Shown piece by piece: positions 11,365-44,111 of a DNA stretch of 64,000 nt. The position numbers and the translations under genes are program-made. Position 1 is the first letter of the stretch; each line of letters opens with the position of its first letter. A model generated the notes under the pieces. The model worked only from the letters and a program-made list of their open reading frames with translations. It did no database searches and had not been told where the DNA came from. Where the stretch lies: the NCBI RefSeq assembly GCF_964204865.1, contig NC_135255.1:4030001-4094000 (forward strand), written 5' to 3'. The DNA comes from Styela clava (Eukaryota; Chordata; Ascidiacea; Stolidobranchia; Styelidae).

Positions 11365-13994
11365 AGAATCGACAGCGCAAATATGTTGCATTTTGTTATG
11401 GCAGGTATAGATTTATTGGTAGAAGCTATGGCAGCTGTTGTATGTTGGAATTAGCGATAAAGGTACAGGTCTTCATGATAACGTATATCAGACAGATTAC
11501 CATGGTCCAGTTCAGGATTAGTTTGTGGACTGTCTAGTCCAGTGTTTCCCAACCTTTATCCGCCCACGTACCATCTCGGGATTTGGTGTAGTGCTCGCGT
11601 ACCACCTACACAAATAATGCGCGCGAAAAGCTATTTCTCACCGTTTGTGACGTCATAATAACGTATTTGATTCATGCAAAATGTAACAACAAATTCTATT
11701 AAACTAGGCCGCATCAGCCAAGATTGATGTGGTGCATGTTATTGTTTTTCCGCCACTATTCAAAAGAAGAGCAACATAGTGAAATGACAAAACAATCCTT
11801 TTAATATGATGGCTGCATTTGTTTATTTTCTACGAGCTGGTCGATGCGTGGCATACATTTGCTCACAGCTAATCGGAAGTCATGCATTGGCTCAAGGAGT
11901 CTGTTTCGTTTCTTAGATTTGATAGTCGTAAGGGATGAAAACTCTTGCTCTCACTCCCACGTCGAAGGGAAAATTAACAGCTGGGGAATAGCGCGAGAAG
12001 CAAGCGTCACATATGAGGAAGCCATGCTAAGCCAGAAGTTGATTGCGAGAACATTCTTTGTGTTTCGTCTTTGCAGTCTGGTCAGCCTGGATATCTATGA
12101 GCTCCTCTTGCTCGACAGGCAGGTCGGCTGGATCAATAGAAAATGGATCGGTTATGTAGGCACAACATATAACATCCGGAAAGTAATGCCTCAATTCGGC
12201 ATTGAGCAGTGACGGGTGATCAACGATTTCGTGGGAGACTTCATCATCGGGCGCGCTGGGAAGGGTTGTCACGGATGTAAACATTCCATATTGCTTGCTT
12301 TCTACGTTATTTTTCCAGAGGTCCAACTTCCGGACAAGCGCTCTCAGTTTTGAATGAACTCTACGATAGTACAGTTTGGTCCTTGAAATGACAAATTTAA
12401 ACGGTTGATGGTTTCAAAAATGTATGCCAAGTAAGTCAACCTTATGACAAATCCCTCATCCTCCAGATCTTTCTGAAACTCGTGATCTTTCTCCCGTAAA
12501 AACGCAAGTAGTTTGTTCCTCTATTGAAAAATACGTTTTGTTGTATTTCCCCTGGAGAGCCAGCGCACTTCTGTGTGATAGAGAAGACAAGTGTGATCGG
12601 AACCGAGATCTTCACAGATCAGCTTAAACAGGCGACTATTTAGAGCTGACGCTTTAACAAAATTTACAATTTTAATAATTCGGTTCAAGTACGATAACAA
12701 CTTCGGTGGAAGTATCTTGGCGCTAAGGGCGAATCTGTGTATAAAACAGTGTACACCGGTGACGTTTGGTGACACGGCTCTCACATGGGCTTGAAACCCA
12801 GACTTTCGACCAAGCATGGCCGGAGCCCCATCTGTCGTGCATCCGATTAGTTTGAGCCAATCCAGTCCATTCAGCTTGAAGAAATTGTCTAGAACAGTGA
12901 TTCCCAAAGTGGGCGATATTTTTGCATCTTGCTGATTGGCCAAGTAAACAAGGAAGTCTTTGCCAGGGGAAACATCCAAACGGCGGTTTTAACGATGAAT
13001 TAATTTTATTTATCATCTACGCTCGAGGAGTAAATTACATTTCTTTTTACGTAACAGAATTTATCGTGAGACACGTTTAGACTAAATTTTATTATATTCT
13101 AAAAATTATATTGAACAGCTAGCTACTCGTTTAAATAGCCTACAATTTAATTATAATTAGACAAATGGAAACGCGCAGAAAAGTTGATGCTGAGTGCAGG
13201 GGTTCAATAGCGCAGTAAATATTCGGATATGTTGCAATGCAATAAGGAAATCAAATTCATATTCTATTCGAGAGATTCATCACTGCTTAATTTTTGTAAG
13301 AATGCGATCCGCAAAAGAATAGCAATCATAATATTGTCCCGCGAGCGACTTAAAATTTACCGACCCCATAAGCCATCCGGGTCCACGAATCCAAAACAAA
13401 TGGCTGCTCAATTCTATGGACTGGCTGTGCCGCAGAGAAGGTCATGAGAGTATTCACTATATTGTGAATAAATTAGTTATTTATGCTAAATTTGCTTTTC
13501 TCAGAACAAAATAAAGCCCTCACAATCGAAGAAAACATGATGCTCCCAGTATATCATGATAGGAGATCAAGAAGATGACACACACTTGTACCTGAGCAAC
13601 GTCACGCAAGGACTTACTATATATATGTACAGTATTTAAATATGGGTAATATAGTGAGATTAAACGCTGAGGGGAAAGGAGCACAAGTTGATACACCAAC
13701 TATAGTTCTAACTGAGCTTAATTGAGACGAAAAATAAGTGGTTGGAGAAGTTGACGTAGCTAGCCTGGCTTACGAAAAAAGTTTTTCACCAGGATAACAT
13801 TCAGTCGGTGGGAAAACGTTCTGGTGATCGGACTGGAGGACGTGGTAGGATGAGGCGTGGGGGATGAATTTTACCGAAGACCCTATATATATCATGTATT
13901 TTGGTGAAGGTCGTCAGGCTGCAGGGATGAATGACATGTACCTAAATCATTATTATAAGTTTTGAAAAATTAATTTTGTTTTCATTATTTTAAT

Positions 13995-14232
13995 GTGAAA
14001 CGGGGTGGATTTAGGGAGTTAAATGTTATAAGGCAAGAATACACGGCGGTTTTTGAGGAGGTAGAACCCTGGATTCTTTCATATCCGACCTCTGATATGG
14101 TGAAAAGAGAGTTTTCAGCCGTGACACTATTGCTATCAAAACAACTAAATTGCCTTTCCATCAGTAAACGGGGTAATTTTAGATATAATAAAAAAACTCG
14201 TCGAAGAACACCAAGATCGTCCATCTCATTAA
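13995..14232 (+). pseudogene. hAT transposase C-terminal remnant inside element B
   Basis: The frame shows KREFSAVTLLLSKQLNCLS, the hAT C-terminal dimerisation motif. After a frame change near 14170 it continues as KKLVEEHQDRPSH and a stop at 14230-14232, the usual end of this transposase subfamily. All upstream domains are missing. Confidence 0.75.
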
Positions 14233-14246
14233 AAAACACTATAAAC

Positions 14247-15215
14247 CAGGGGTTCCCAAACTTTATTAGCCGCGGGCCAAAATTAGAATCGAAAGCATGT
14301 TCACGGGCCGAAAGTGCGCTGCGGTTTAGCTGGGATTTAGTAGATTCACATTGGACACATTTTTGAAACTTGTGTGTTTGACTCGTAATGAAGTTAAATG
14401 TTGTATTCCTTCAGAACTAGAATAGTTCGCTGGCAAAGAGGACAAATCGCTGAAGTCTGAGTCATAGTCTAGGTCAGGGCTACTCGACTACCGGTATGAC
14501 AATGTTTCAGTTGTGTAACTTAGCGCCGACTTGCTGGGATGATTACAAATATTCGACCCCATAGCACCCGTGAATATATGTATATATTTATAGGTCTTCC
14601 GGCGACTTATATTATTTTTATGACTGAAAATTTAGAATTTTTTTTTTTAAATAATATTAAGGTAAGCCACAACGTTCACGAGAATTTTAGCATGACGTTT
14701 CATTAATCAATTTCGTGTCCAATAGCAAAGTTATCCGTCAATCGTTAGTCTGGAAAATTACATTTCAATCTTGGCTCTAAGAAGTGAGAGTATACTATTT
14801 TGCAAAATCGGGTTATTTGTTCTAATTTTAAATTTCAAAAATACAACTAGAAACTGACAAATGAGTACAAAGCCAAAACACAGTCTAATCGTAAATATAT
14901 ACTACTACGGGTCTAATATGTACCAACTTTTCTAAAAATCTTTGAAAAGTGTATTTTTTTCTCGTTGTTTAGCGAAAATGCATTACATCACGATTGTGGA
15001 ATAAAAAGAAACGATGCATTCCAACCGGTACGTATATTTGAGATACAGCTATAATCGAATTGCTATGATAAACACGAGCTTAGACTGCGATGATGACATA
15101 ACAATTGGCGGTATCTAGTTTGCAAAAAGGTAGAAACAAAATCTTCACTTAAGCACGGCGGGCCATTTTAAATCGTTACGCGGGCCGGATTTGGCCCGCG
15201 GTTTGGGAACCCCTG
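14247..15215. mobile_element. hAT element C, 969-bp non-autonomous, innermost
   Basis: Terminal repeats CAGGGGTTCCCAAAC (left) and the same read inward from the right bound the element. It is flanked by an exact 8-bp duplication CTATAAAC (14239-14246, 15216-15223). The subterminal sequence contains the gcgggcc motif common to this MITE class. No coding capacity. Confidence 0.93.
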
Positions 15216-16279
15216 CTATAAACTATGATTTGTCCTCTTATTTGGTCTGTAATATATTCGTTTCAGCCTTTCAATTTTTTTTGCAGTGCCGGGGGCGATG
15301 AAGTTGTATAAACTAGTGTAGGGAGGCGATGGTACAAAAAGTTTGGGAACCACTGGTCTAGAACGCTGAAAACATCCTTTCCTTTTGTTGTACTGCACAA
15401 CTCTTGGCTCAGCAGTAATTCTGTTTTTTACAGCATTATCCTGTGTGAAACGGACATAGACAAGTAGTTAACTGCAGTTCGAAACATCTGTAGATTCGTC
15501 GACCTGTATTGCAAACCCAAATTTTGAAGCTCTTACTCCCGCAGTAACTTGATCGGCAATGTCAACTGACATCTCCTCGATACGGCGCTTTAGAGTATTG
15601 TTAGAGAGGGACACACTGTCCAACTTTGCCACGGACTCCTCTCCCATCACACGTCTGACCAAAATCTTTGCTGCCGGCATTATGAGAGACTCTGCAATGG
15701 TATGAGCTGTAATGCTTTTAGCCACCAAGAAAGCGACATCATACGACGCTTTGACAATCTCTGTCCCCTTCTGGTGGAATAAGCCAGTTCTGTCCAAACG
15801 CTTCCGCTTCATTTGCTCCGCAAGTCGCCGGAAGTAGCTCTGATCTCGATTTTTCCTATCAGCGTGGTTCGTTCTAAGATGACGTAGAAGCAGGCTGGGT
15901 TTCATGGACGCGTTGGAAAGACCACTGTGAATCCAGCAGAATTTCAGCAGAAAAATATTCTGCAGTTTTCAACCGATTCCCACGCGGAATATAACAACTT
16001 TTAATAATATTAATTACGAATAAACTGATCCTACTCAGAATTAAATGTTCCGAGAAAAGCACATCGGAGAAAAAGATACGTTTAAGCACATTAAGCTGGT
16101 ACTGGTAATTATTAAATACATAAATAAGATTCACATGACGGAGAATCACATAAAAAAAGAATATGTTAGCACGAAAAACAAAACAAAATCTAATATCACA
16201 TAAGGGAACACCAAAAATATCGGTAGGTTTTTTTGCAATGTTACTAATGCTAACTGTAATGTATGAGCCCAAATTCGAA

Positions 16280-18530
16280 TATAATCCGCAAAATGCCGAC
16301 AACTTATAAAAGTAATTCTGAATGATATAGATAGTCACGAGTATAATATGATATGGGGGTAAGGAACAAAGCGAGTCTTCATGAAGTATAGGATATTGAA
16401 ACAAATATCGGCCGTCAAAAATTGATGAAAATCAGATTTTGTCATATTTGATGCGTCATCGATTGTTCGACGCCATATTCGAATATGTTATTTTATTTTC
16501 CGACAACTTTAGACAGTGATTTTATTTACATAAATAACTCAAGTGTCCAATAACAAAGTATGATCACCAGCAGAATGAAATTGAAAAAATATGGGCCTTC
16601 AAATATTGACGAAAATAAGATTTTGTCATATTTAGAGCGATATCGACTATTCGACGGCAATTTAGAATATGTTATTTTATTTTCCGACAACTTTTGACAA
16701 TGATTTCATTTACATGTATAATTTAAGTCTCCAACAGCAAAGTATGATCACCAGCAGAATAAAAAAAATAAAATGAATAGGATTTCAAATATTGGTGAAA
16801 ATCGTATTTTGGGCAATATCGATTATTCGACTACAAATTCGAATATATTATTTTACTTTCCAACAACTTTTGACAACGATTTCGTTTTTATGTATAATTC
16901 AAGTATCGAAAAACAAAGTATATATGATCACCAGCAGAATGAAAATTAAAAAAATATGGGATTTCAAAAATTGAAGAAAATCAGATTTTGTCATATTTGG
17001 AGAAAAATCGTTTATTCGATGCCAAATTCGAATATGTTATTTTATTTTCCGACAACTTTTGACAAAGATTTCGTTTTTAAGTATAATTGAAGTGTTCAAC
17101 AAGAAAGTATGATCACCAGCAGAATGAAAATAAAAAATACGGCCCTGCAAAAATTGATGAAAATCGGAATTTGTCATATTTGGTGCGAAATCGATTGTTC
17201 GACGCCATATTCGAATATGTTATTTTATTTTCCGACAACTTTAGACAGTGATTTTATTTACATAAATAACTCAAGTGTCCAATAACAAAGTATGATCACC
17301 AGCAGAATGAAATTGAAAAAATATGGGCCTTCAAATATTGACGAAAATAAGATTTTGTCATATTTAGAGCGATATCGACTATTCGACGGCAATTTAGAAT
17401 ATGTTATTTTATTTTCCGACAACTTTTGACAATGATTTCATTTACATGTATAATTTAAGTCTCCAACAGCAAAGTATGATCACCAGCAGAATAAAAAAAA
17501 TAAAATGAATAGGATTTCAAATATTGGTGAAAATCGTATTTTGGGCAATATCGATTATTCGACTACAAATTCGAATATATTATTTTACTTTCCAACAACT
17601 TTTGACAACGATTTCGTTTTTATGTATAATTCAAGTATCGAAAAACAAAGTATGATCACCAGCAGAATGAAAATTAAAAAAATATGGGATTTCAAAAATT
17701 GAAGAAAATCAGATTTTGTCATATTTGGAGAAAAATCGTTTATTCGATGCCAAATTCGAATATGTTATTTTATTTTCCGACAACTTTTGACAAAGATTTC
17801 GTTTTTAAGTATAATTGAAGTGTTCAACAAGAAAGTATGATCACCAGCAGAATGAAAATAAAAAATACGGCCCTGCAAAAATTGATGAAAATCGGAATTT
17901 GTCATATTTGGTGCGAAATCGATTATTCGAAACCAAATTCGAATATGTTATTTAATTTTCCGACAACTTTTGACAATGATTTCGTTTTTAAGTATAATTG
18001 AAGTGTTCAACAACAAAGAATGATCACCAGCAGAATAAAAATTGGAAAAATATGGGCCTTCAAAAATTGATGAAAATCGTATTTTGTGCCAAATCGATTA
18101 TTCGAAACCAAATTCGAATATGTTGTTGTATTTTCCGACAACTTTTGACAATGATTTCGTTTTTAAGTATAACTGAAGTGTCCAACAACAAAGTATTATC
18201 ACCAGCAGAATGGAAATTGAAAAAAATATGGGCCTTCAATAATTGATGAAAACCGTATTTTGTGCGACTTCGATTGATCGGCGCCAAATTCGAATATGTT
18301 ATTTTATTTTCCGACAACTTTTGACAATGATTTCGTTTTTAAGTATAACTGAAGTGTCCAACAACAAAGTATGATCACCAGCAGAATGAAATTGAAAAAA
18401 ATACGAGCCTTCAGAGATTGATAAAAATCGTATTTTGTGCGATATCGATTTTTCGACGCCAAATCCGAATATGTTATTTTATTTTCCGACAACTTTTGAC
18501 AATGATTTCAGATTTTGTCATATTTGGTTT
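16280..18530 (+). repeat. Satellite array, about 180-bp monomers with higher-order structure
   Basis: Twelve or so monomers each contain tatgatcaccagcagaat, attcgaatatgttatttta and ccgacaacttttgacaatga. The tatgatcacc landmark recurs at 16559, 16743, 16923, 17108, 17291, 17475, 17651, 17836, about 18019, 18194 and 18370, spacing 175-185. Monomers 1-4 and 5-8 are nearly identical in order (offset 732, 732, 728, 728), so there is a 4-monomer higher-order unit. Diverged monomer sequence persists in both flanks. The short ORFs inside are by-products of the repeat. Confidence 0.93.
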
Positions 18531-19090
18531 GAAATAGGTGATTCGGCTTCAATTTCAAATATAATCCGCAAAGTAACGACAAATTGTCACGGCGTTTTCA
18601 TTCATAATAGATGAAAAATGCAGAACACCGGCAGCAAATCTTGACATAGTATGCCTTCAAAATCTGCTTGAAATTGAGGCTCGAATATGGTTCGAAAAAC
18701 GCCGTTTACATATTTTAATCTTCATCTCTATAAATGTTCGTTTTAACTATTAATAATTCTAAATAGATTAATATAAAAACATATAATAAGAAGACACTTT
18801 TGCATATTGAATCGAGTTGAATTCTGGTGCCGTGCAATTACAAATTATCAATTATTTTAATTTAAATGCATGGAGTTAGTAGCTTTGGATTTAAGAATGT
18901 ATTCATAACACATACAGTATATGAACATTGTTATTTCGAATGCGCTAAACTTACTGGGAGATGGGCTAGATGTGCTGAATAAATGAAATTGCATCGATAT
19001 AGTTGTTTTATGCATTGTAACTGATAATATGAAAGAACCGAGAAATTCGTCGTACCAATCTTAATAATAGTTATAAATTATAGCCTACAT
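18531..19090. other. AT-rich spacer, no feature recognised
   Basis: The first part (to about 18600) still resembles decayed satellite (aatataatccgcaaagtaacgac). The rest shows no gene, RNA or transposon terminus. Confidence 0.4.
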
Positions 19091-19283
19091 CAGGCCTGAC
19101 CAACCTTTTTCGTCTCACGGGCCACTTTCACTTGACGAAATTCGTTGCGGGCCGCAAACGTTTGTACCAAACATTAATACCAGCAAAGTCCTAATTTCGG
19201 TGTAGATAATTTACATAATACGTAAAAGGCAAGTTAATTAACATAAAATTAATCACGTTAATAATTGCTTTCTGGTTATTGGG
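19091..19283. mobile_element. hAT-like left end, truncated
   Basis: CAGGCCTGACCAACCTTTTT followed by cgggccactttcac is a typical hAT MITE terminus. The preceding 8 bases are gcctacat. No matching right end was found, probably because another hAT-like end (cagggctggcaaattattcg) begins at 19284. Confidence 0.45.
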
Positions 19284-20350
19284 CAGGGCTGGCAAATTAT
19301 TCGAATATCAAGTCGAATATTAGAATAGCAGTTTACTATTCGAATATCTGGTAACACGGGGAGTGGACATGACACTCGCGGGCCGCCGAATCAAAGAATC
19401 AATTGCGGTTTTTTGACGACCACACAAGAACACATACATCGCGTCAAAACTGAGTGTTATATTTGGGTTACAGTGTTTTATTCATTTATTTTGAGTAGCT
19501 ATGATACTGCCTCAATGTTTAAATGAGCATAATGTGCGCCAATGTCAAAGGAATATCAAGTTTAAGTGGGCCGTTTCGTAACATTTAAAACACCAATACA
19601 AGTACTTAATGAAGTAACATTACAAAAATTTCTGGATGAATAGCCCATATATACTGATGATTCCATTACATTTGAACCCAGTACATTTGAACCCGCGTAC
19701 ATTTGAACCCACGACAATTGCACCTGCATACTATTGCACCTATGGGAATTTTTTTGTTTTACGGATATTTGAACCCATACTAACCCTAACCCATGGGTTT
19801 TAGCACCTGCATATAGATTGAACCCTGGTTATACACATGGGTTCTGAGGTACATGGTTAAAATGTACGTGGGTTCAAATGTACGGTCACCGATACTGATT
19901 TATAACTAATATGTAGCAATGTCATCAAGTCAATTTTATCAAAATTATTGACGGATACGCAGTGACGACATTTCCGAAATCTTATTTAACGCAAACATAA
20001 CATATACAAACGTAAAAGGACAACGAGTCCCGGAATCAAATATCAACCAAAGATATTGTTGACTTTTTACTTCACGTTGGCGATCAAAGTCGACACGAAA
20101 GAAAGCAGTCAGAATGAAATTAATTTGTAAATTTTGGCTCCAAATTCATTCCTATAATCGCGCTCAGCGTTCGTCCCTAATGATCGCACAATATCTTTCG
20201 AGTTCATCGAACAGAACGCACAGTTTTGCGAGAAATAAAAAAAAACTGACGTCGATGTCCATCAGGGTGCAAGACTTGACACATACGTAATCATAAAAAC
20301 CGGCATTTGAATGTCGATAGATGGCAGGAATAATCACACCAAAACATACT
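19284..20350 (+). repeat. Dispersed repeat, copy 2 (related to 4800-5520)
   Basis: It begins with a hAT-style end, CAGGGCTGGCAAATTATTCG, then runs collinear with 4800-5520: aatagcagtttactattcga, gagcataatgtgcgccaatg, gcacaatatctttcgagtt. It is interrupted by the foldback element at 19659-19891. No right terminal repeat was located and no protein is encoded. Confidence 0.6.
19659..19891. mobile_element. 233-bp foldback MITE built from CATTTGAACCC units
   Basis: Repeated tacatttgaaccc blocks on the left face gggttcaaatgtac on the right. The element is flanked by an exact 8-bp duplication ATACTGAT (19651-19658, 19892-19899). The centre contains catactaaccctaaccc and several gcacct units. Removing it restores the dispersed repeat around it. 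Confidence 0.85.
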
Positions 20351-20472
20351 TAAGTTTATACAGGATGTCTCAAAAGTAAGTATACACTTTTACTTTTGAT
20401 TTGCCTTTCAGGTACTCATCATAGGGCGATCATTTTTTCAGGAAACATAGTATAGATAAGTAGTAAAATTTA

Positions 20473-21994
20473 GGGGTGCTCCCGAAGTATGCGAACCAAG
20501 ATGGCGGACATCGGAACGTAACAGGTTAGGGTTAGGCCATAATTTTTTTCCAATTTTCCTTATTTTAGTCCTATTATCAGTTCGAAGACTAGCCAAGAGC
20601 CTCCCTTAGTATTTATATATACCTAAAATTATGGCCTAACCCTAACCTAGTACACAATTAGAGATGTACCGATACCACTTTTGTCGCCGATACCGATACC
20701 GATCCGATACCAGCTAAAAACGCCGATACCGATACCGATACGCCGATACTACAAAAAGGCCGATATTACCGATATTCCGATACCGATACTATGTAATTAT
20801 TACTTAATTAGGTATGCTGTGTAGAGCAGACGGGTTAAAACAATGGTCTTTAAGCGTTGTTCATAGTACACATTATTTCAGATCGAAAAAAAAGATATAT
20901 ATATCACATAATATGAAATTAATGTTTGGTATCCATATGCTGTAACTGATTAAGATACATTGTACAGTAACGCTAGTAGCTAGGTGTTCAATTAGAAAAC
21001 TCATAAGCCGGAATGTCCAATTTGAATTTAATATTAATATCGCGAGCTTCGAATATCGTTATTCGTGTTTAAAAGAATATCGAATATCACCCACACATTC
21101 TAGCGCCGCCGTCCTACGTTCAAATTAAAAGCATTTTACAAATATTTAATTTAGTGGCTAATCGTAATCGTCGACGCAATAAGTCAAAGCCAACATGAAA
21201 GAATATCAATCAGCACCGACAAAAAGAAAGCCCACCGTTAACCGTTGAGGATGTTTTTTTACTTCTCTATTTTATAATATTTTACAATTGCTATCATATA
21301 TTTTGAGACAGTCTAGGGCTAGGCGGTCAAGTCAATATATCTATAAAGAAATCGTGTAGTTAAGCAGAATTAAAATTAATACCTGTGTAGTGGGATAATT
21401 GTGTCGGAATTTAGTTTATCGATGTCGACGGACTAAATGACACTCGTACTTGACGACAAACAGCCAGAATTTATACCCGTGCCAAAAGTCCATGTGCCGT
21501 TAATAAGGAAGGACCCCAATTCCACTGTATGATTTAAAACTGGGCGCCTAGTTGCTTTTTGTTATGTGCTGTGTTGATATATTTCTTCATAAAAACTATG
21601 TAATATTGAAAATGTCAATATAAAAATTTGACAGCGAAAATAGCCAAATTAGTTGAGCTAGTTTAGCTGATAAATAGCTAAAAACACGTGAATCCTATTC
21701 TCTCGCAGGGGTGGGGACATGTATGGCTCATAGCTCACGATCTCTCCAGACAAAAATTAATTAAAAAGTAGTATTCCATTCCAACTTATCTTTTAAAACA
21801 TTCTGGACCATATCAAAAAGGTAAATATATCGGTAATATCGGCCTTAATCTAACCGATACCGATACATGGCCGATACCGAAAAAATGGCCGATATTGCCG
21901 ATACCGATACCCGATACCGATACATCGGTACATCTCTAGTACACATATTACATTCCGATGTCCGCCATCTTGGTTCGCATACTTCGGGAGCCCC
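20473..21994. mobile_element. Palindromic foldback element with nested hAT
   Basis: The left arm ggggtgctcccgaagtatgc through aagatggcggacatcgga mirrors the right arm, which ends tccgccatcttggttcgcat and acttcgggagcccc. AATTTA flanks both sides (20467-20472, 21995-22000). The arms also include ggttagggttaggccataat and its inverse. A hAT element sits in the right arm. Confidence 0.85.
20659..21938. mobile_element. 1.28-kb non-autonomous hAT, TAGAGATGTACCGATA type
   Basis: The ends are TAGAGATGTACCGATA and its inverse, with many ccgatacc/cggtatcgg units in both subterminal regions. Flanking 8-mers are gtacacaa (20650-20657, one base outside) and gtacacat (21939-21946), a near-perfect target duplication. 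No transposase frame was found. Confidence 0.82.
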
Positions 21995-22199
21995 AATTTA
22001 GGTATTGTTTGCATTTTTCAATAACTCACAGAATGACAAGGAGAAAATGGGGTGAAAATTGCTGTTTGCAAGAAGCATAAAACAGTGAGGAATTCAGCAC
22101 TTAACGACGAAGAATTACGCTATTCATCAAAAATTCATGGAAACTGGATTTGTAATTGATGCACAATGATCAGGAAGACCAAGGGCGGACGCTATGAGG

Positions 22200-23835
22200 A
22201 TCCTGAATTAGTTTCAAATTCTTTGTTAAATAGGCCCTAAGTTTGCCTTACTGATTTACATGCTTCTTGCCAATCAGCAACCAAATACTCTATGTATTTT
22301 AAATATCGATACACAAAGTATTTTTATGTAATTAATATAGTATCTTGATGACGTAGATTTTGGATCCTATTCAAGAATAAATAGCAGAATGCAATTTCAC
22401 ACCACATTATTACGATATTTTGCGATACTCGATAGACATAGTCAGAGCCGAACAGCAGCCGACCGGGTAAAATTAAAATTACCCATTGTGACATCATCAA
22501 AAATGAACGCTGTGTGCGATCAATATGTCGTTAGTACTTTACAGGGTTTTGTTGGGTTCCTACACTCGTGAATGAAGATATATGTCACCGCCTACTGATC
22601 AATGTAACGTGTAGAATTAATCTTCGGATTCCTTTGCCGTTGTGTCCAGTTTCGATAGAGAGATAAAATTCGAAATCTAAAGCGGAAGTTTCAACATAGA
22701 CCAATATTCACACTTTGATGGTAAGCATTTTGAATCTGTTGAAAATGTCATATTATAATGTCAACAAAAAAAAATAAGGGAAAAGCATTTCAAACCTGTA
22801 CCTAACCCAGTGTTGGCAGGCGTAGAAATTGAATTCCATGAGAATGTCACTATGAAATTAAAGGCACGTGAGATAGAGATCGCGCACCAAAGTAGTTTTA
22901 ATAACGCTGAGATCGCAGTAGCACCTAAATTGAAATGTGAGTCTTGACAATCATGAAGCTAATCAAAATATTTCCAAGCGAAAAATGTTTTATCAATAAA
23001 CAATAAATGTCAGCCCCGCCATATGACTGAAACCCACTATTATTCAAACAAAATATGCTTTCTAATTCAAAATAACTGTACAGTTTCACAGTTACATTGT
23101 CTTTATTTTTGTAAAGGCTAATAAAATATAGATATAGCTATAACAAAATGACAAAATGGAGAGACCATTTTATTCGTAAGTAATGTTGCACTTGTCAATG
23201 CAGTATTTGGGCCACACCCGCTCACTTTCCGGAACTCAAAACGAGTGTTATGGTATCGTGCTTTCTAGGGCTACGCCGTTTTTACACAGCCTTAAGTATC
23301 TTTTGAAGAGTTTATAAATTCAACTTATTATTCTATCTAATTCGGTTATTAGCGCAAGTATCTTGCATGTAGAATGTCGCATTTCAGGCAATTGAAAAAT
23401 TATTTATGAAGTTCAATACATTTTACGTAAACGTTGAAGGTCTGTTATGAAATTATTAAGGATTCTTTATGACGTTGCTGCTAAAAACGGACCGAACAAA
23501 TGGCATATCTTAGACAAGGGCTTCTCGACGTTTAAATCCTACCCCGACCTCAGCTCACGAACTGTGAACAAAATTAATTATCCTGTGTAATATTTATATT
23601 AATATCTTGTTTGTTTAATCTGCTTTCATTTTTGCAGCATGAGTAAAAATATTTATGACATAACATCAATTAGTTTAACCGTATACAAAATTCAGAATAT
23701 CGACGATTCCAATTGATTCGGACATTATAGCATTAAAAGAGCAGAAATAAAACTATGAAATATTATTTCAAGAATAGAAAATAAATCATATCGCATGCAA
23801 AATATGATATGAGCAGTTTCAACTGAGGTGATAAA
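22200..23835. other. AT-rich spacer left of the PHD/Ulp1/USP element
   Basis: No gene or complete repeat was recognised. The left terminus of the element starting around 23.8 kb should lie somewhere here, but I could not define a terminal repeat. Confidence 0.4.
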
Positions 23836-24474
23836 ATGAAAACCAGGGCTGACACCAGCAAAGGCAACTTTATATCAGAACCACTGAAAACTAGGAAAAG
23901 AAGAGAGACAAAAAGAATCAATAGGCGAATAAGAAGTGACACAAGAGGAAATAAAAATACTACAATAATTAATGACATTGCAAATTTCTTTTTTTTGAAT
24001 GGAGAAACCTCATTCAGTTCCGCTCATGCCGAACAGGAATTCTTAAAAATCAACAATCGCGATAATATTCAAAAGTTGGTAAGGTCGGAAGATGTACAAA
24101 TAGATGAAAGTACCAGTCAGAAGTGTAAAAATAATGATATCTATTGCATATGCCGAAGTGGATGGAACGACGAACACATGGCTCAATGTGAGAGTTGTAA
24201 GGAATGGTTTCACCCACGCTGCATTCTTCCGGAAGAAGATTTGAAAAAAATATCTCATAAAGACTGGGAATCTGTAGCCCTTGTTTGTGATGGTTCTCGG
24301 ATAGTAGTCCACAATGACTTGGGTTCAGGATTAGTTTACAACGCAACGTGTACAAAAGAAAATGACAAAAAAAATTTTCAACAATCAAATTTTATGCAAT
24401 GGGATTGTTCTTATATGCCATGTAAAAAAGGTACAGATAAGCTGATGAACGCTACTCAAAAACAGAAGTGCTAA
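23836..24474 (+). pseudogene. PHD-finger protein, first frame of the element
   Basis: A 212-residue frame. The N-terminal 40 residues are basic (for example TRKRRETKRINRRIRSDTR), possibly a nuclear or DNA-binding tail. Residues about 104-151 form a PHD-like zinc finger: YCICRSGWNDEHMAQCESCK, then WFH and RCI, giving C-x-C, C-x2-C, H-x2-C and a later single C151. The final Cys of the C4HC3 set is missing, so the finger is degenerate or mutated. PHD fingers bind histone H3 tails, so a role in chromatin targeting is plausible. The frame ends in TAA at 24472, while an adjacent frame continues toward the transposase. Confidence 0.7.
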
Positions 24475-26707
24475 CGCCCGATGTTAATTTTTTCTCACCG
24501 TGCATCTCTGAAACAGCATACAACACTGATTCAATGCAAGATTATGAAGCTCTAATTAATTTGGAACAAGGTGATGGCTCGAATGAATGCGTGAATGCTA
24601 ATGATTCAGACTCTTCTTGTTCTATTTTCAGTACTTATAATTCTTCTTCCGACAGCGACTGCGAGTCAACATAGGGCAGCGAAATTTTGGACAAGTATAT
24701 TAAAATCAGACATACTCAAGAAATTCCTCTCGACACTTGGAAAAGACTAACTAAAAAACGAAACGACCTTAGATTTGGAAATTCGGCTTATATTAATTTC
24801 GCTGTCAATTTATTCCACAAACTAGATGACGGATGTACCCCAGCTGTTAAAAACCATTATTTGAGAAAAAATGATGCTGTTCGGACCAAGGAATACTACG
24901 AGGGAAAAATTACCTTGTATTGCGCACACACTAACTGCAAAAGCAAGTGTCATTGCGAGGTAAAGGGCGTCATAGAAATATGGTCGATTGGACGAAGTAT
25001 TGAGGCGCGAGTGAAAATTGACGGAAGGAGACGACATTTTCTGTCATGCTCGAAAAGAAGGCGGGTAACTGGAACAGCCCGAAAGCATCTCAAGGAAAAA
25101 TTAAAACTGGCATCAGCAAAAAAAAATTATTTGGACTGTTACGACAAATTATCGGAAAATCAACGCATGTGTGGCAATTATACCGGAGCTCCAACTAAAG
25201 CAGCTATTCGTAAAATGAAAAGCTAATTAAGAGACCATGGGGAGACAAAAAGTTGGGTAGAAAATTTAAATATTCAACGCAAACATGAAATTAAAGAAAA
25301 CAAGCCATTTTTGCGGACTGTTTCAGCAATTCCACCTGCTGTAAGCTTCATGACAAATTTTCAAATCAGAGTGTACCGAGAAGTTGTATAAAACGCTATT
25401 TTGTACTTTGATGCAACAGGAAGCGTTGTGCGTCGTCAGCCTGAACTCGCAGATTTTCAAATATATACCCTTCTTGTACGAAACCCTTTCATAGAGAATG
25501 CTCCGCTACCTGTGGCATCTTTTTTGACAAGTGAGATCATACCTACGTAAATATTAGTCACTTTCTAGACAATTTCCTCAGCGAATGCGGGTCTAATAAG
25601 TTGCCAATCAGAATAATGTTAGACGGGTCACCTGCAATGTGGAATGCGGTTTTGCGATCTTTTTCCAAGGAAACTCTTCTTCAATATTATCAACGATGTT
25701 GGAGAATTGTAACAGGCCATCCATGCGTATCAGATTTAAAAAAAAGTTATTGTGACAAATTGCTACAGCCATGCCATGAGAGCGGCCAAAATCATGTGCA
25801 CAAAATATCTCAAAACAACGAAGCACATTATAACGCACTTCATTTTCCGGATATCGAAATTGTTTAAAAGTAAAACTATGGAGGAACTAGATAGTTTAAT
25901 TTATTCATTCATTGTGATAACGAATACGTGCATGAATTGCGATTTAGTGGACAATGCGTTCGATAATTTGAAACAAAGCGGTGGAAACGAAGACCTCGGA
26001 TTGGATGATTTGATCAAAGCTGATTTCTTAAATGACGAATTTGTGTTACACAGAAACAAAAGTGACACGTTCGAGAAAAAATCTCCGTTCTACCAAAGGT
26101 ACCGAAAAATGGTAGACAGTATCGCCTCACACACATTAAAAATAAAACTTCAACAATAACAAATAAATATTACGATGAATCATTTTGCGACATCTCAATT
26201 CAATTTATTATCAGTAAAATACCCACTACATCGGAGTTGATGCACGGCGATCTATCCCGGCACATGACAGAGTGCAAGATACAGGATGCAAAACTTTCTT
26301 TTCAAAATTTCTCAAAGAGGTACGCATCAATAGAAAAGAAAAACACCCAAACAATATGTTCAAACAATCGTACACAGGGAATAATAGAGCAACATTTTAG
26401 GACGCTGAAAAAAATAATATTAAATGGTGATAGAGCTTCTAATCCAGAAGATTTTATTTTAAAATACAAATCTGGCTTGAATATACAGGAAAAACAGTTT
26501 ATTGATATATTGAGACAAAACAAGTATAAGCGTGTTGATTTGCGTTTGAAAAACTCATTAAAAAGGCATACTTCACAAAATCGAAGTTCCGGAAACGTAA
26601 GCGCAGAGGATCTGGGTATTTTGGTACTGAAAAAGCAAAGAACATATTTTGCGTTAACAAAAAAAGGCCGCCACCGCCAAAAACCCCCACCTAAGGAAAT
26701 ATACTGA
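24468..26707 (+). pseudogene. DDE-type transposase (MULE/NOF-like), broken in several frames
   Basis: The frame opens with an acidic Ser-rich stretch (24468-24674), then a stop. From 24687 a Cys-rich module, YCAHTNCKSKCHC, is followed by basic helices. The catalytic core shows YFDATGSVV with Asp at 25410-25412, then IMLDGSPAMWNAVL with Asp at 25622-25624. NCYSHAMRAAK follows (25755 onward) and RTQGIIEQHFRTLKK has Glu at 26387-26389. This order and the C..H/AMRAAK-type motif fit RNase H-fold transposases. Stops at 25224 and 25392 and frame changes near 25540 and 25745 show decay. Assignment to MULE/NOF is from memory and moderately certain; KDZ-type elements are an alternative. Confidence 0.6.
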
Positions 26708-26717
26708 ATATAATGTA

Positions 26718-27500
26718 TTGGATTATGGTAGGGAATTTGTGATTAAAGCATGGCATATTGCCGAAATAGTTGATAAAATGTATGATATTGCTATGGTCAC
26801 CAAAGGAGGGAGATCCATCTCTTGGTTTGATTTGTCTTCAGTATGCCCGAACCCCACGTTAAAACTTCTGCAACGATTAAAAGGAGTTTCGCCTAATTAT
26901 TCACCAGGATGGCTAACAGACGAAATAGTCAACAGCTACTTCTCAGTTAAACTCAACTACTTCAATAATGAACACAGAGACCATTTATTCGGTTTTGGAG
27001 ATACAATACTTGCGCAGCAAATATTATCCGGCGATCAATTCAAGATACCTAATCGCGCATGCAATATATTATTCCAGAACGATGATCTAAATTCAATTTG
27101 TCGAATAGTATTTTTTCCACCTATATATTACAATCACTTTGTTTTACTATGGTACAATGTCCAAATGAATTTACTGGTATTGGCTGATTCCAAATCAGAG
27201 ACCGACGTAAATTTCATAAATAAAATTAAGTTGACTTTCATTCGTTTTCTAGAAAGGATTTTGAAAACGAAAACAAACAAGAAATAGTTTTTACAGAGAA
27301 ACGTATTGTCAATCAAACGGACTCCATAAGCTGTGGAATTTGTGCATGCATTGCAATGGATTTTGTATGCTTTGGATATCTTCAAAAAAGATTTGAAATT
27401 GACAATGCCCAGCAAACCTACAGGTACCTAGTTCCTTATGTTATTTTCAATTATTCTTCCACAGCAGATTCTCGTTTAGAAAATGCTGCTAGTACCATAA
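26718..27500 (+). pseudogene. Ulp1-like C48 cysteine protease domain
   Basis: The C48 family cleaves SUMO-type conjugates and occurs as a passenger domain in several eukaryotic DNA transposons. The block GWLTDEIVNSYFSVKL is the usual Ulp1 substrate-channel motif. The catalytic set is complete: His in YNHFVLLWYN (27135-27137), Asp in LADSKS (27186-27188), Gln in VNQTDS (27314-27316) and Cys in SISCGICACIA (27332-27334). One frameshift near 27270 separates His/Asp from Gln/Cys. The preceding transposase frame ends 10 bases upstream, suggesting a former fusion or polyprotein. Confidence 0.75.
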
Positions 27501-28518
27501 CGGAAGTGACAGAAAAAACGTCTACACTGAAGAACATTTTTAACAACTGTTGGTTTAATTCAGCTTCACAGTGTCTGTGTTCTGTCCTATCATATTACCG
27601 ATTGGCTCGCCCAATTTTTTCTAGCATTCGCGATGGAAATGTATTTTTGAAGTTATTAACAGTCTTGTCAAAAATGGTTCTAGGTGAAACAGTTCGGCGG
27701 TGAACGAGGTATCTTCGGCATTTGGTATGGTCTTAGGCCAACAGCAAGACACTGTGGAGTTTTTCTTACGGCTATTACAATCAGAATTCCGTACCCAACT
27801 AGAAAGAACCGGCCTTACGATTGATACTATTGCAAGTGTATCTTACTCGTATTGACAAGCGGGCTGTCCAAATAAAATTCTCCAATGTAACTTTAAATGC
27901 GTCTGATTATGAAGATGTTGAAATTTGTTTGAGATCGCACCTTAAAGAATTCGCGTCAGAATTGGCATCACTACAATTGTCGTCTAATGCCAATTTGCGT
28001 TTCAAAGAAGCAGATGTGACATTTACATAACATTGCTACCAAAAATGCTTGTTTTCGATATTAACCGAGGCGCCGTCGAAGGCAAAATATCTACTCGCAT
28101 TCTCTTAGATGAAACCTTTACAATCGATTTAAAAGGTGATTTGGTGCTTTACAAACTTAAGTGTGTTGCAGCACACATTGGTAACGCGATGTCTAGCGGT
28201 CATTGGTTTACATACGTTTTCCCTGAAAACAGTCAAAACGTTCTGTGTTATAACGATTCGACCGTTAGCAGTCTGCCTAAAGAAACAACCATTTCGAAAC
28301 TGCAAACCGAGTGTTCTTTAGCTATTTATGTCCAGGAAGGCCAATCAGCTACAGCTAGATATAGACCCATCGACAACAGCGATTTATGTGAAAGCGACGA
28401 TGACGAGTTGCCGGTTACTATTATAGCTCGGCCAAAGAAGGCAGAGCTTTCATTAATGTTCCCCAAGTTGTCGAGGAAAAATACCTTGTTTCGAAGTTTA
28501 ACAAGGATTAAAAAATGA
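27500..28518 (+). pseudogene. Ubiquitin-specific-protease-like (C19) domain
   Basis: USPs remove ubiquitin from conjugates. The Cys box LKNIFNNCWFNSASQCL has Cys at 27548-27550. The next frame has GQQQDTVEFFLRLL, matching the USP QQD..EF motif. Farther on, LPKMLVFDINR is the conserved strand before the His box. GHWFTYVF has His at 28201-28203, and CYNDSTV supplies the usual Asn/Asp position; SLAIYVQ resembles the family's closing strand. Frames switch at about 27690, 27850 and 28025, so the copy is inactive. The length of about 340 residues is compact for a USP. The order Cys, QQD, LP, His is diagnostic. Confidence 0.7.
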
Positions 28519-28533
28519 TACTGATGACGCTCG

Positions 28534-28857
28534 CCATTGGATAGAACTGCCCAATGATTTTTCATCGGCATTATTGCAATATATTACAGATATTACAAAG
28601 CTTTCGAAAGAAAAATCACTAACAAAAAATGTTGGAAGACGGCATTACCTGTTTTTACAACTGGATCACAGCAAATTGTTAATGGTTAATAGAAATATGA
28701 AATGTAGTACTGTTTTCGGCGAAGATTTCCAATTCAACTTAATTGTGTATTTGCGCTATACATTTTGCTGCAGACAGCAGAAAATTCGTTACCTCAAAAA
28801 CACAGTTTTATCAAGAGGAATACAGCAAGTGACAAGTTTTTTGTAACACCAATTTAT
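28534..28857 (+). pseudogene. C-terminal tail of the element, unassigned
   Basis: The frame continues after the USP-like domain with DARHWIELPND and NVGRRHYLFLQLDHSKLL, ending before TAA at 28855. No domain recognised. It is probably the end of the same polyprotein because codon style and strand continue. Confidence 0.4.
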
Positions 28858-28869
28858 GTAACTAAATTA

Positions 28870-29213
28870 AATCGTCTAGTCTAGTTGATATTATTGCTCT
28901 TATCGTCTGCCTGACTAATGAATTCTTAAAATCTCTCCCAAGTTTCAATAGGCATAATCACTTCTCCGATGCTCGCAGCACGCTGTCTTTGAAGATTTCA
29001 CAGTTTGTACGCAAAGCCTTGAATTTCACATTGTTGCGTCACAATCACAACAACGCAAGATCAGGGAAAGTCTGTTTCGATTGGCGTCTAGTTCCAATGC
29101 CTCAATGGGCACGCATTTTCACATGGTAGTAATAAAGGATATTAAAAAACAGCAACATATAAAAACTCGACTGCCATCCAAGTACCCCTGGAAATCTTCT
29201 CGTGAACCCCTGG
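28870..29213. repeat. hAT MITE copy related to 42645-43156, left end lost
   Basis: The segment shares long stretches with the MITE in CNPPD1: cacaatcacaacaacgcaag, ggatattaaaaaacagcaac, aactcgactgccatccaagt. It ends tctcgtgaacccctg at the right. The left terminus is missing, so it abuts the PHD/Ulp1/USP element directly. Confidence 0.75.
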
Positions 29214-31505: not shown

Positions 31506-32700
31506 TTTAGTTTATTTTTCCATATTTATATATTGAGTACTATTAGTGTATCTGTAATAACTGCCATCTAATTCTGAGCCTAACCCTTGCTGATTCAAAT
31601 AATAGTTTATTTCTTCATATTTATATATTAAGTACTATTTGTGTATCTGCAATAACTGCCATCTAATTTTGAAGCTAACCCTTGCTGATTCAAATAATAG
31701 TTTATTTATCCTATTTATATTTTGAGTACTGTTTTATGTATTCGCCAAAACTGCCATTTAATTTTGAGGCAAATCCTTGCTGATTCAAATTATAGTATAT
31801 TTCTCCGTACTTATATATTGAATACTGTTTGCGTATTTGCAATAACTGCCATCTAATATTGGGGCAAACCCTTGCTGATTCAAATTATAGTTCATTTATC
31901 CATATTTATATATTGAATCCTATTTGTGTATTCGCAATGACTGCCATCTAATTTTGGGGCTAACGCTTGCTAAGTCAAATAATAGTTTATTTATCCATAT
32001 TTATATATTGAATACTATTTGTGTATTCGCAATAACTGCCATCTAATTTTGAGGTAAACCCTTGCCAAGTCAAATAATAGTTTATTTATCCATATTTATA
32101 TATTGAATAATATTTGTGTATTTGCATTAACTGCCATCTAATTTTGAGGCAAACCCTTGCTGATTCAAATAATAGTATATTTATCCATATTTATATTATG
32201 AGCACCATTGGTGTATTTGCAATAACTGCCGTCTAATTTTGAGGCTGAACCCTTGCTATATTCTTTATATTGAGGTCTATTTTGTGCATTTGAGAGGCTG
32301 ACCCTCTCTATTTCAAATAATGTTTATTTATCCAAATTTCCACTTGATATTAAGATTACCAAAATTGTTTCACATTTGGGGTATATAATAGTTTATAAAT
32401 TGGTACTTATATATGTATTTGTGGGTATTAATCACCCATCTGTCTAAATTCTTTCTTGTTATAAGGCTGATTCCACTCTTTATACAATTGTTTCCCAATA
32501 TTATATTCACATGACTATGAGTACCATTTTGTTTATCTCCGGAAACTTATTTTTACATGTGAGGCTTACCGCTTGCTGACGCAAACAATTGTTATGTGTC
32601 CAACTTTACATTTGAGTATAGTAGTCCAATAGCCAAATTTGTTTTTTTATTCATGGGACTTAGACCTCGCTTTCAAATAATAGTCTGTGTAATAGTTGAT
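31506..32700 (+). repeat. 95-bp satellite array
   Basis: The landmark ctgcc.tctaatttt recurs at 31561, 31656, 31751, 31846, 31941, 32036, 32131 and 32226, exactly 95 bases each time. Each unit has cccttgctgattcaaataat, a ttatttatcc.atatttatat block and gtgtatttgcaataa. Beyond about 32280 units decay but motifs persist to about 32700. Confidence 0.92.

Positions 32701-36444: not shown

Positions 36445-44111
<7,667 letters not shown>

Follow-up and report, generated by a model that had tools for sequence, protein, structure and literature searches.

In the 64,000-nucleotide stretch of the Styela clava genome analyzed here (contig NC_135255.1, designated C6, positions 4030001-4094000; hereafter the window), the forward strand carries what is almost certainly a decayed, 3'-truncated DNA transposon of the Mutator (Mutator-like element, MULE) superfamily, with long terminal inverted repeats that bear satellite DNA. 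The element would have encoded one protein composed of a PHD finger, a zinc finger, a DDE transposase, a Ulp1-type (C48) protease, a USP-type (C19) deubiquitinase, and a C-terminal region, in that order. Comparison with copies and relatives elsewhere in the 376.6 Mb of genome searched showed that this predicted architecture is held in one open reading frame (ORF), that its putative catalytic residues are invariant, that the element is flanked by 8- to 9-bp target duplications, and that near-identical copies lie on several contigs. Combined with a mechanism in which the proteases would act in cis, this identity is the best overall explanation of the locus, to which we assign a probability of roughly 0.6.

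The window contains the remains of one long ORF

An initial annotation, made from the window alone, had placed PHD, transposase, C48, and C19 motifs in a row on one strand, and all four were found where it had put them, within an ORF remnant at 23836-28834 on the plus strand. The PHD finger occupies 24142-24270 (PF00628; E value, 1.2e-7) and is followed by the zinc-finger core of the transposase N terminus (C..C..H, 24918-25049), which was located by alignment. The DDE core (25404-26398) comprises the D of YFDATGS (25404-25424), the D of LDGSPAMW (25619-25642), the C..H insert motif NCYSHAMRAAK (25758-25790), and the E of GIIEQHF (26378-26398). The Ulp1 core (26907-27337) contains GWLTDEIV (26907-26930), the His of NHF (from 27132), the Asp of LADS (27180-27191), and the Gln and Cys of QTDSISCG (27314-27337). 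The USP domain (27542-28263) has its Cys box at NNCWFNS (27542-27562), GQQQD at 27736-27762, a His box at 28174-28221, and the Asp of YNDST at 28249-28263; only the beginning of the C-terminal region (28517-28834) is left. Pfam searches recovered the PHD finger and the UCH domain (E value, 1.5e-7 on the unaltered frame with the His box; reading through the broken frames extended the match to almost the entire domain, with an E value of 1.1e-16), but they returned no transposase and no Ulp1 match for the window pieces or their read-through, and both of these identities were established through relatives.

The coding pieces (23836-28843) are interrupted by at least 10 frame breaks and three in-frame stops. 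At each of the 10 frame changes between pieces, the window differs in length from one or the other of two further copies, on contigs C1 and C18. Of these interruptions, the three stops and seven breaks are spanned by uninterrupted frames of 440, 235, 239, 237, and 400 amino acids in the C1 copy, the 400-residue frame also continuing the C-terminal region; at the remaining three breaks the C1 copy is itself broken close by. Because the C1 frames cross the window's stops and breaks, and lengths differ at those spots, the window frames are the remains of one long ORF. In the window itself, a single unbroken 157-codon frame (27230-27700) holds the catalytic Cys residues of both Ulp1 and USP. With the copy split into about eleven frames, one might suspect a chance row of unrelated fragments, such as a dead transposase beside a host protease gene; this is contradicted by the C1 copy and by seven uninterrupted ORFs, all of which repeat the domain order (see below), and we regard it as practically out of the question.

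Satellite-bearing ends and other copies of the element

The 5' terminal inverted repeat, whose outer end reads ACCACTGTGAATCCAGCAG, lies at 15921-16390 on the plus strand; the C1 copy has this sequence at its two ends, in inverted orientation. The inner part of the 5' arm (16391-18516, plus strand) is a satellite array of ca. 176- to 185-bp units (Tandem Repeats Finder, 16397-18509, 11.7 copies). Between arm and coding region, a plus-strand spacer without any listed frame of 110 or more amino acids (18521-23835) is present in the C1 copy at 92 to 95% identity. An inverted-repeat element with 52-nucleotide arms, foreign to the transposon and without assigned strand, occupies 20475-21994 in this spacer; it is missing from the C1 copy and was therefore inserted later in the window. 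Sequences like those of its ends turn up again close to other copies. Only the 5' end at 15921 was found in the window, with no second inverted end at up to three mismatches. The window copy is decayed, and its 3' end is lost after about position 28834. Just beyond the truncation lies one member of a repeat pair (28909-29210 and 42830-43122; 83% identical).

The C1 copy, in contrast, measures 19,426 bp and retains both inverted ends, with an identical 8-bp target duplication, ATTGTATC, at both flanks. The outer parts of its arms (ca. 517 bp) are 88.8% identical to each other, and the inner parts are inverted arrays of 186-bp units. It matches 15921-20474 and 21995-28834 of the window, with gaps, at 89 to 97% identity outside the satellite; its coding region is nearly complete and in the same order (94 to 97% identity, some gaps), one gap deleting part of the C..H motif. 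The same domain order inside inverted ends with a target duplication bears out the DNA transposon identity that had been proposed. The initial annotation had given the extent as 23836-28857 and had expected inverted repeats and target duplications about 1 to 2 kb outside the frames; both were found on C1, but its interval covers the coding part, and the 5' end sits 8 kb further upstream, at 15921.

The C18 copy retains the 5' arm and the equivalent of 23151-26247, where its match to the window ends; an inverted end was looked for at this break and not found, and the copy therefore reads as truncated. In the copies read, neither of the two arrangements that the initial annotation had named as telling against its proposal was encountered: a transposase-only copy with inverted repeats ending before 26.7 kb, or the proteases as an independent, intron-bearing host gene. 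The ratios of nonsynonymous to synonymous substitution rates (dN/dS) between copies (window-C1, 0.53; window-C18, 0.48; C1-C18, 0.66) indicate mild constraint.

The 470-bp end has at least 46 matches in the genome, short pieces included, forming about 14 apparent pairs. Among seven end pairs compared, C1 included, three are flanked by exact 8-bp duplications and one by an exact 9-bp duplication, within the 8 to 11 bp that characterize the Mutator superfamily; terminal inverted repeats, also expected of that superfamily, are present in the C1 copy, and the window copy retains one. One locus (C3:7733401-7743400) makes up the interior of a 14-kb element that has these ends and a 9-bp duplication. 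It consists mostly of inverted 372-bp satellite arrays with no match to the transposon coding region, and the element probably carries satellite DNA without being autonomous.

Intact relatives elsewhere in the genome

When the Ulp1-USP frame of the C1 copy was used as a protein query, 40 matches were obtained in the genome, counting the window and C1. Twelve of them, at 27 to 34% identity, lie inside stop-free frames of 1,505 to 1,950 amino acids, each extending across the Ulp1 Cys region as well as the USP Cys region; the remaining matches are shorter, partial, or stop bearing. Seven of the 12 long frames were read (L049, 1,828 amino acids; L050, 1,817; L051, 1,944; L052, 1,658; L053, 1,844; L054, 1,874; and L055, 1,751, for which the stretch read ends near the ORF start). 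All seven are uninterrupted and have the domain order of the window, so that, together with the order in the C1 copy, the PHD finger and both proteases can be assigned to the transposon, as had been suggested. The seven ORFs represent five lineages, which are 28 to 70% identical to one another, since L055 is almost identical to L049 and L052 comes close to identity with L053. L049 itself was found at five places at 99 to 100% identity over 2,307 bp, with further partial ones, the near-identical copies lying on several contigs (C8, C14, C2, and C18 among them), and its coding region is flanked by inverted arrays of 196-bp units.

Alignment of the seven ORFs gave 254 invariant columns, which include the catalytic residues of all three enzyme domains (DDE, Ulp1, and USP) and most PHD ligands. 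Numbered according to L049, the invariant residues are D604, D678, and E936 together with C724 and H727 in the transposase; H1206, D1223, Q1264, and C1270 in Ulp1; C1340, H1558, and D1575/D1576 in USP; and, in the PHD finger, Cys/His ligands, M214, and W223. For L053-L054, dN/dS was 0.27 over the whole ORF, 0.17 for DDE, 0.28 for Ulp1, 0.28 for USP, and 0.85 for the linker after the PHD finger, with the PHD and zinc-finger parts near synonymous saturation. The substitution pattern of this pair shows purifying selection on the predicted Ulp1 and USP domains. Of the other pairs, L052-L053 (dN/dS, 1.15) differs by 3.8 synonymous and 17.2 other changes, too few to tell; L049-L055 is uninformative, with one and two changes only; and L049-L053 is saturated. 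Mutator-like elements tend to pick up host gene fragments, as the available text of PMC6446971 describes, and the two protease domains could accordingly be captured baggage, serving as SUMO- and ubiquitin-binding modules instead of enzymes. Against this stand the invariance of the catalytic residues across all seven ORFs, from five lineages, and the dN/dS of 0.28 in the one informative pair, and we consider such a role very improbable.

After the USP domain, L049 to L054 continue with a C-terminal region of about 200 amino acids (L053-L054 dN/dS, 0.35), to which Pfam assigned no convincing match when five of the intact proteins were scanned.

Identity of the protease, PHD, and transposase domains

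Pfam alone detected no C48 domain in the window or in the five intact relatives scanned. A profile built from five relatives and the window's Ulp1 half matched SENP2 (E value, 8.4e-7) and SENP1 (E value, ca. 8e-7) over most of the domain, and the Ulp1 profile scored 43.0 against a fish Ulp1 profile, compared with at most 21.2 for 40 column shuffles. The domain thus combines an ordered His-Asp-Gln-Cys set with SENP homology, as in peptidases of the C48 (Ulp1/SENP) family. In line with membership of the C19 (USP) family, Cys, His, and Asp boxes are spread over a full UCH domain, which Pfam recognized in L049 (E value, 3.6e-8), L050 (5.2e-16), L051 (3.7e-19), and L053 (1.5e-10). The nearest USP varies by approach: by sequence, the solved chains closest to the window USP are USP28 and USP25, and a structure model of the L049 Ulp1-USP part (predicted local distance difference test score, 60.5) matched USP30 and USP1 (E value, ca. 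4e-13; USP fold, 3.7e-13). Catalysis by both domains, as SUMO- and ubiquitin-type proteases, is predicted on this basis.

A single ORF of up to 1,944 amino acids with two cysteine proteases also invites the idea that Ulp1 and USP process their own large protein in the manner of viral polyprotein proteases, either by cutting it at SUMO- or ubiquitin-like joints or by releasing the transposase from a fused form. Pfam scans of the five intact proteins revealed no ubiquitin or SUMO domain and hence no visible cleavage joint, making self-processing improbable in our judgment.

The solved chains closest to the window PHD finger are EBS, SHL, DIDO1, PHF2, and PHF8, which we take to be mostly readers of methylated H3K4; the Met and Trp at conserved places presumably help build the methyl-lysine cage. 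PHD scores for L049, L051, L053, and L054 fell slightly below the Pfam cutoff. In the seven ORFs and the window alike, a C..H motif separates the second D of the transposase DDE core from its E, as in the Mutator superfamily. A model of the transposase of a fish relative matched ISCth4, consistent with an IS256-type fold, and the N-terminal zinc-finger region of a fish model gave a weak match to WRKY18 (E value, 0.019; 63 columns).

Relatives in other organisms and in the literature

A search of 4,269 candidate proteins with the window read-through (E value cutoff, ≤0.001) returned one match, a protein from Oreochromis in which transposase, Macro, and PHD regions are combined with an Ulp1-like stretch recognized by motif. 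From this protein, 21 proteins including itself were collected, 19 of them bearing fish names, one from the leech Helobdella, and one unnamed. In the 18 that were aligned and scanned by Pfam at a reporting threshold of E ≤ 0.1 (all but P0016, P0019, and P0020), PHD was found in nine, Peptidase_C48 in six, Macro in three, and UCH in none. The transposase of the fish proteins (P0001, P0006, P0007, and others) is homologous to that of the window (25% identity across 38% of the read-through), and they share Ulp1, above the Pfam cutoff in P0004 and P0007 and by motif in P0001, as well as PHD, which is C-terminal in the fish proteins and N-terminal in the S. clava element. In a tree of the transposase core, a branch with a support of 100 divided six sequences of the S. 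clava genome from those of fish and leech. The Macro domain of the fish proteins P0001, P0002, and P0018, which we assume to be of the ADP-ribose type, follows the transposase and in P0001 precedes Ulp1; it is, by domain assignment, a third kind of putative tag-handling domain in this transposase family.

DDE transposases bearing Ulp1, and sometimes PHD, have been described: in the text available of PMC2836005, Ulp1 accompanies the Ginger1 transposase, Ginger1-9_HM has a PHD finger as well, and Ulp1 is also present in hydra and lancelet Mutator elements, with a given Ginger1 transposase carrying either OTU or Ulp1 but not both. That 2010 paper also proposed that ubiquitin and SUMO pathways participate in transposition. 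Ginger1 makes 4-bp target duplications of the CCGG type, in contrast to the 8 to 9 bp of the S. clava element. A Trichomonas protein mentioned in the same text joins a ubiquitin-type protease, peptidase C19, to a transposase; it belongs to another transposase family, transposase_11, and no Ulp1 or PHD is mentioned for it there. Rehavkus, described in PMC6446971, is likewise Mutator-like, combines a transposase with a PHD finger, as the S. clava element does, and has a 9-bp target duplication and a minisatellite near one end. The likeness is by description only: its minisatellite is described only before the 3' repeat, whereas C1 and L049 have inverted arrays on both arms (the 3' end of the window copy being lost), and a term search of the main text finds no protease and no Ulp1. 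The foldback transposon Tetris shares terminal inverted repeats that contain tandem repeats of ca. 220 bp, from which satellite DNA is supplied, but it is apparently non-autonomous, its abstract describing no coding sequence (PMC4079207). The main text of a paper on arthropod MULEs names no PHD, Ulp1, peptidase, or ubiquitin (PMC13359780).

No transposase with both a SUMO-type and a ubiquitin-type protease was found in the open-access literature searched, a scope that leaves Repbase and subscription papers outside; single-protease cases are those in the text of PMC2836005. The initial annotation's view of the architecture as non-standard thus holds for the USP joined to Ulp1 and PHD; PHD and Ulp1 on a transposase were already published in 2010 (PMC2836005), and the added USP, that is, the USP-Ulp1 pairing, is the new part as judged from that text.

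Other features of the window

Minus-strand frames at 12027-15968 resemble what we take to be a decayed hAT-type transposase, and plus-strand frames at 39763-42328 resemble exons of a host gene with a cyclin domain, which we presume to be perhaps CNPPD1. A tandem array at 31508-32257 (95-bp unit, 7.9 copies) showed no match to the transposon satellite in a self-comparison of the window.

Mechanism and significance

The initial annotation had suggested an element that may edit chromatin and ubiquitin/SUMO marks at insertion sites or evade host silencing. In the mechanism that we favor, the transposase would bind the long arms and paste the element, and the PHD finger would dock the complex onto H3K4-methylated, open chromatin, thereby choosing integration sites. 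Ulp1 and USP, fixed in cis, would remove SUMO and ubiquitin from the transposase or from surrounding chromatin or repair factors, such that the complex would be neither silenced nor degraded. This division of labor, with PHD targeting and proteases stripping tags in cis, is a tentative proposal that we hold at somewhat less than even odds. Alternatively, the proteases may act in trans at the level of the host, lowering SUMO and ubiquitin on silencing factors and rendering the carrier genome permissive. Such an action would suit two protease domains that are both complete and selected, and other transposons bear Ulp1, OTU, or C19 alone (as far as the text of PMC2836005 describes them), but physical fusion to the transposase favors cis action, and we think the host-level alternative unlikely.

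Several observations weigh against the overall explanation of a Mutator-type transposon with proteases acting in cis. Pfam found no UCH domain in L054, although its catalytic residues are conserved. The PHD finger lacks the usual last Cys pair, with just C250 invariant and followed by a conserved H258, and with such atypical zinc ligands its fold and reading may differ. The evidence for selection on the proteases comes from a single informative pair, L053-L054. Two of the five L049 places lie in 1,852-amino-acid frames and three in shorter ones (566, 781, and 1,275 amino acids), and the L049 stretch examined comprises the coding region and flanking arrays, stopping short of the outer ends. Finally, three of the seven end pairs have no exact duplication (two with two mismatches at 8 bp, one with none), in a comparison covering seven of the ca. 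14 apparent pairs.

Several lineages within a single genome here retain, in one ORF under selection, a transposase together with a histone reader and with proteases of both the SUMO and the ubiquitin type. Whether the SUMO and ubiquitin proteases borne by transposons target the transposase itself, host silencing, or repair becomes testable, as both active sites are in one protein and separable one at a time. With its PHD finger, this element would stand beside RAG2 as a second DDE recombinase that may be steered by a histone mark. The satellite-built arms are a candidate route for transposons seeding satellites. More speculatively, and with doubts outweighing our confidence by a fair measure, a still-moving transposon lineage may work as a single chromatin-handling machine, in which a histone-mark reader would pick the landing site, a SUMO protease and a deubiquitinase would clear both tags from the transposition complex in cis as the element's own countermeasures to SUMO- and ubiquitin-based silencing, and the inverted arms would be a source of the genome's satellites.

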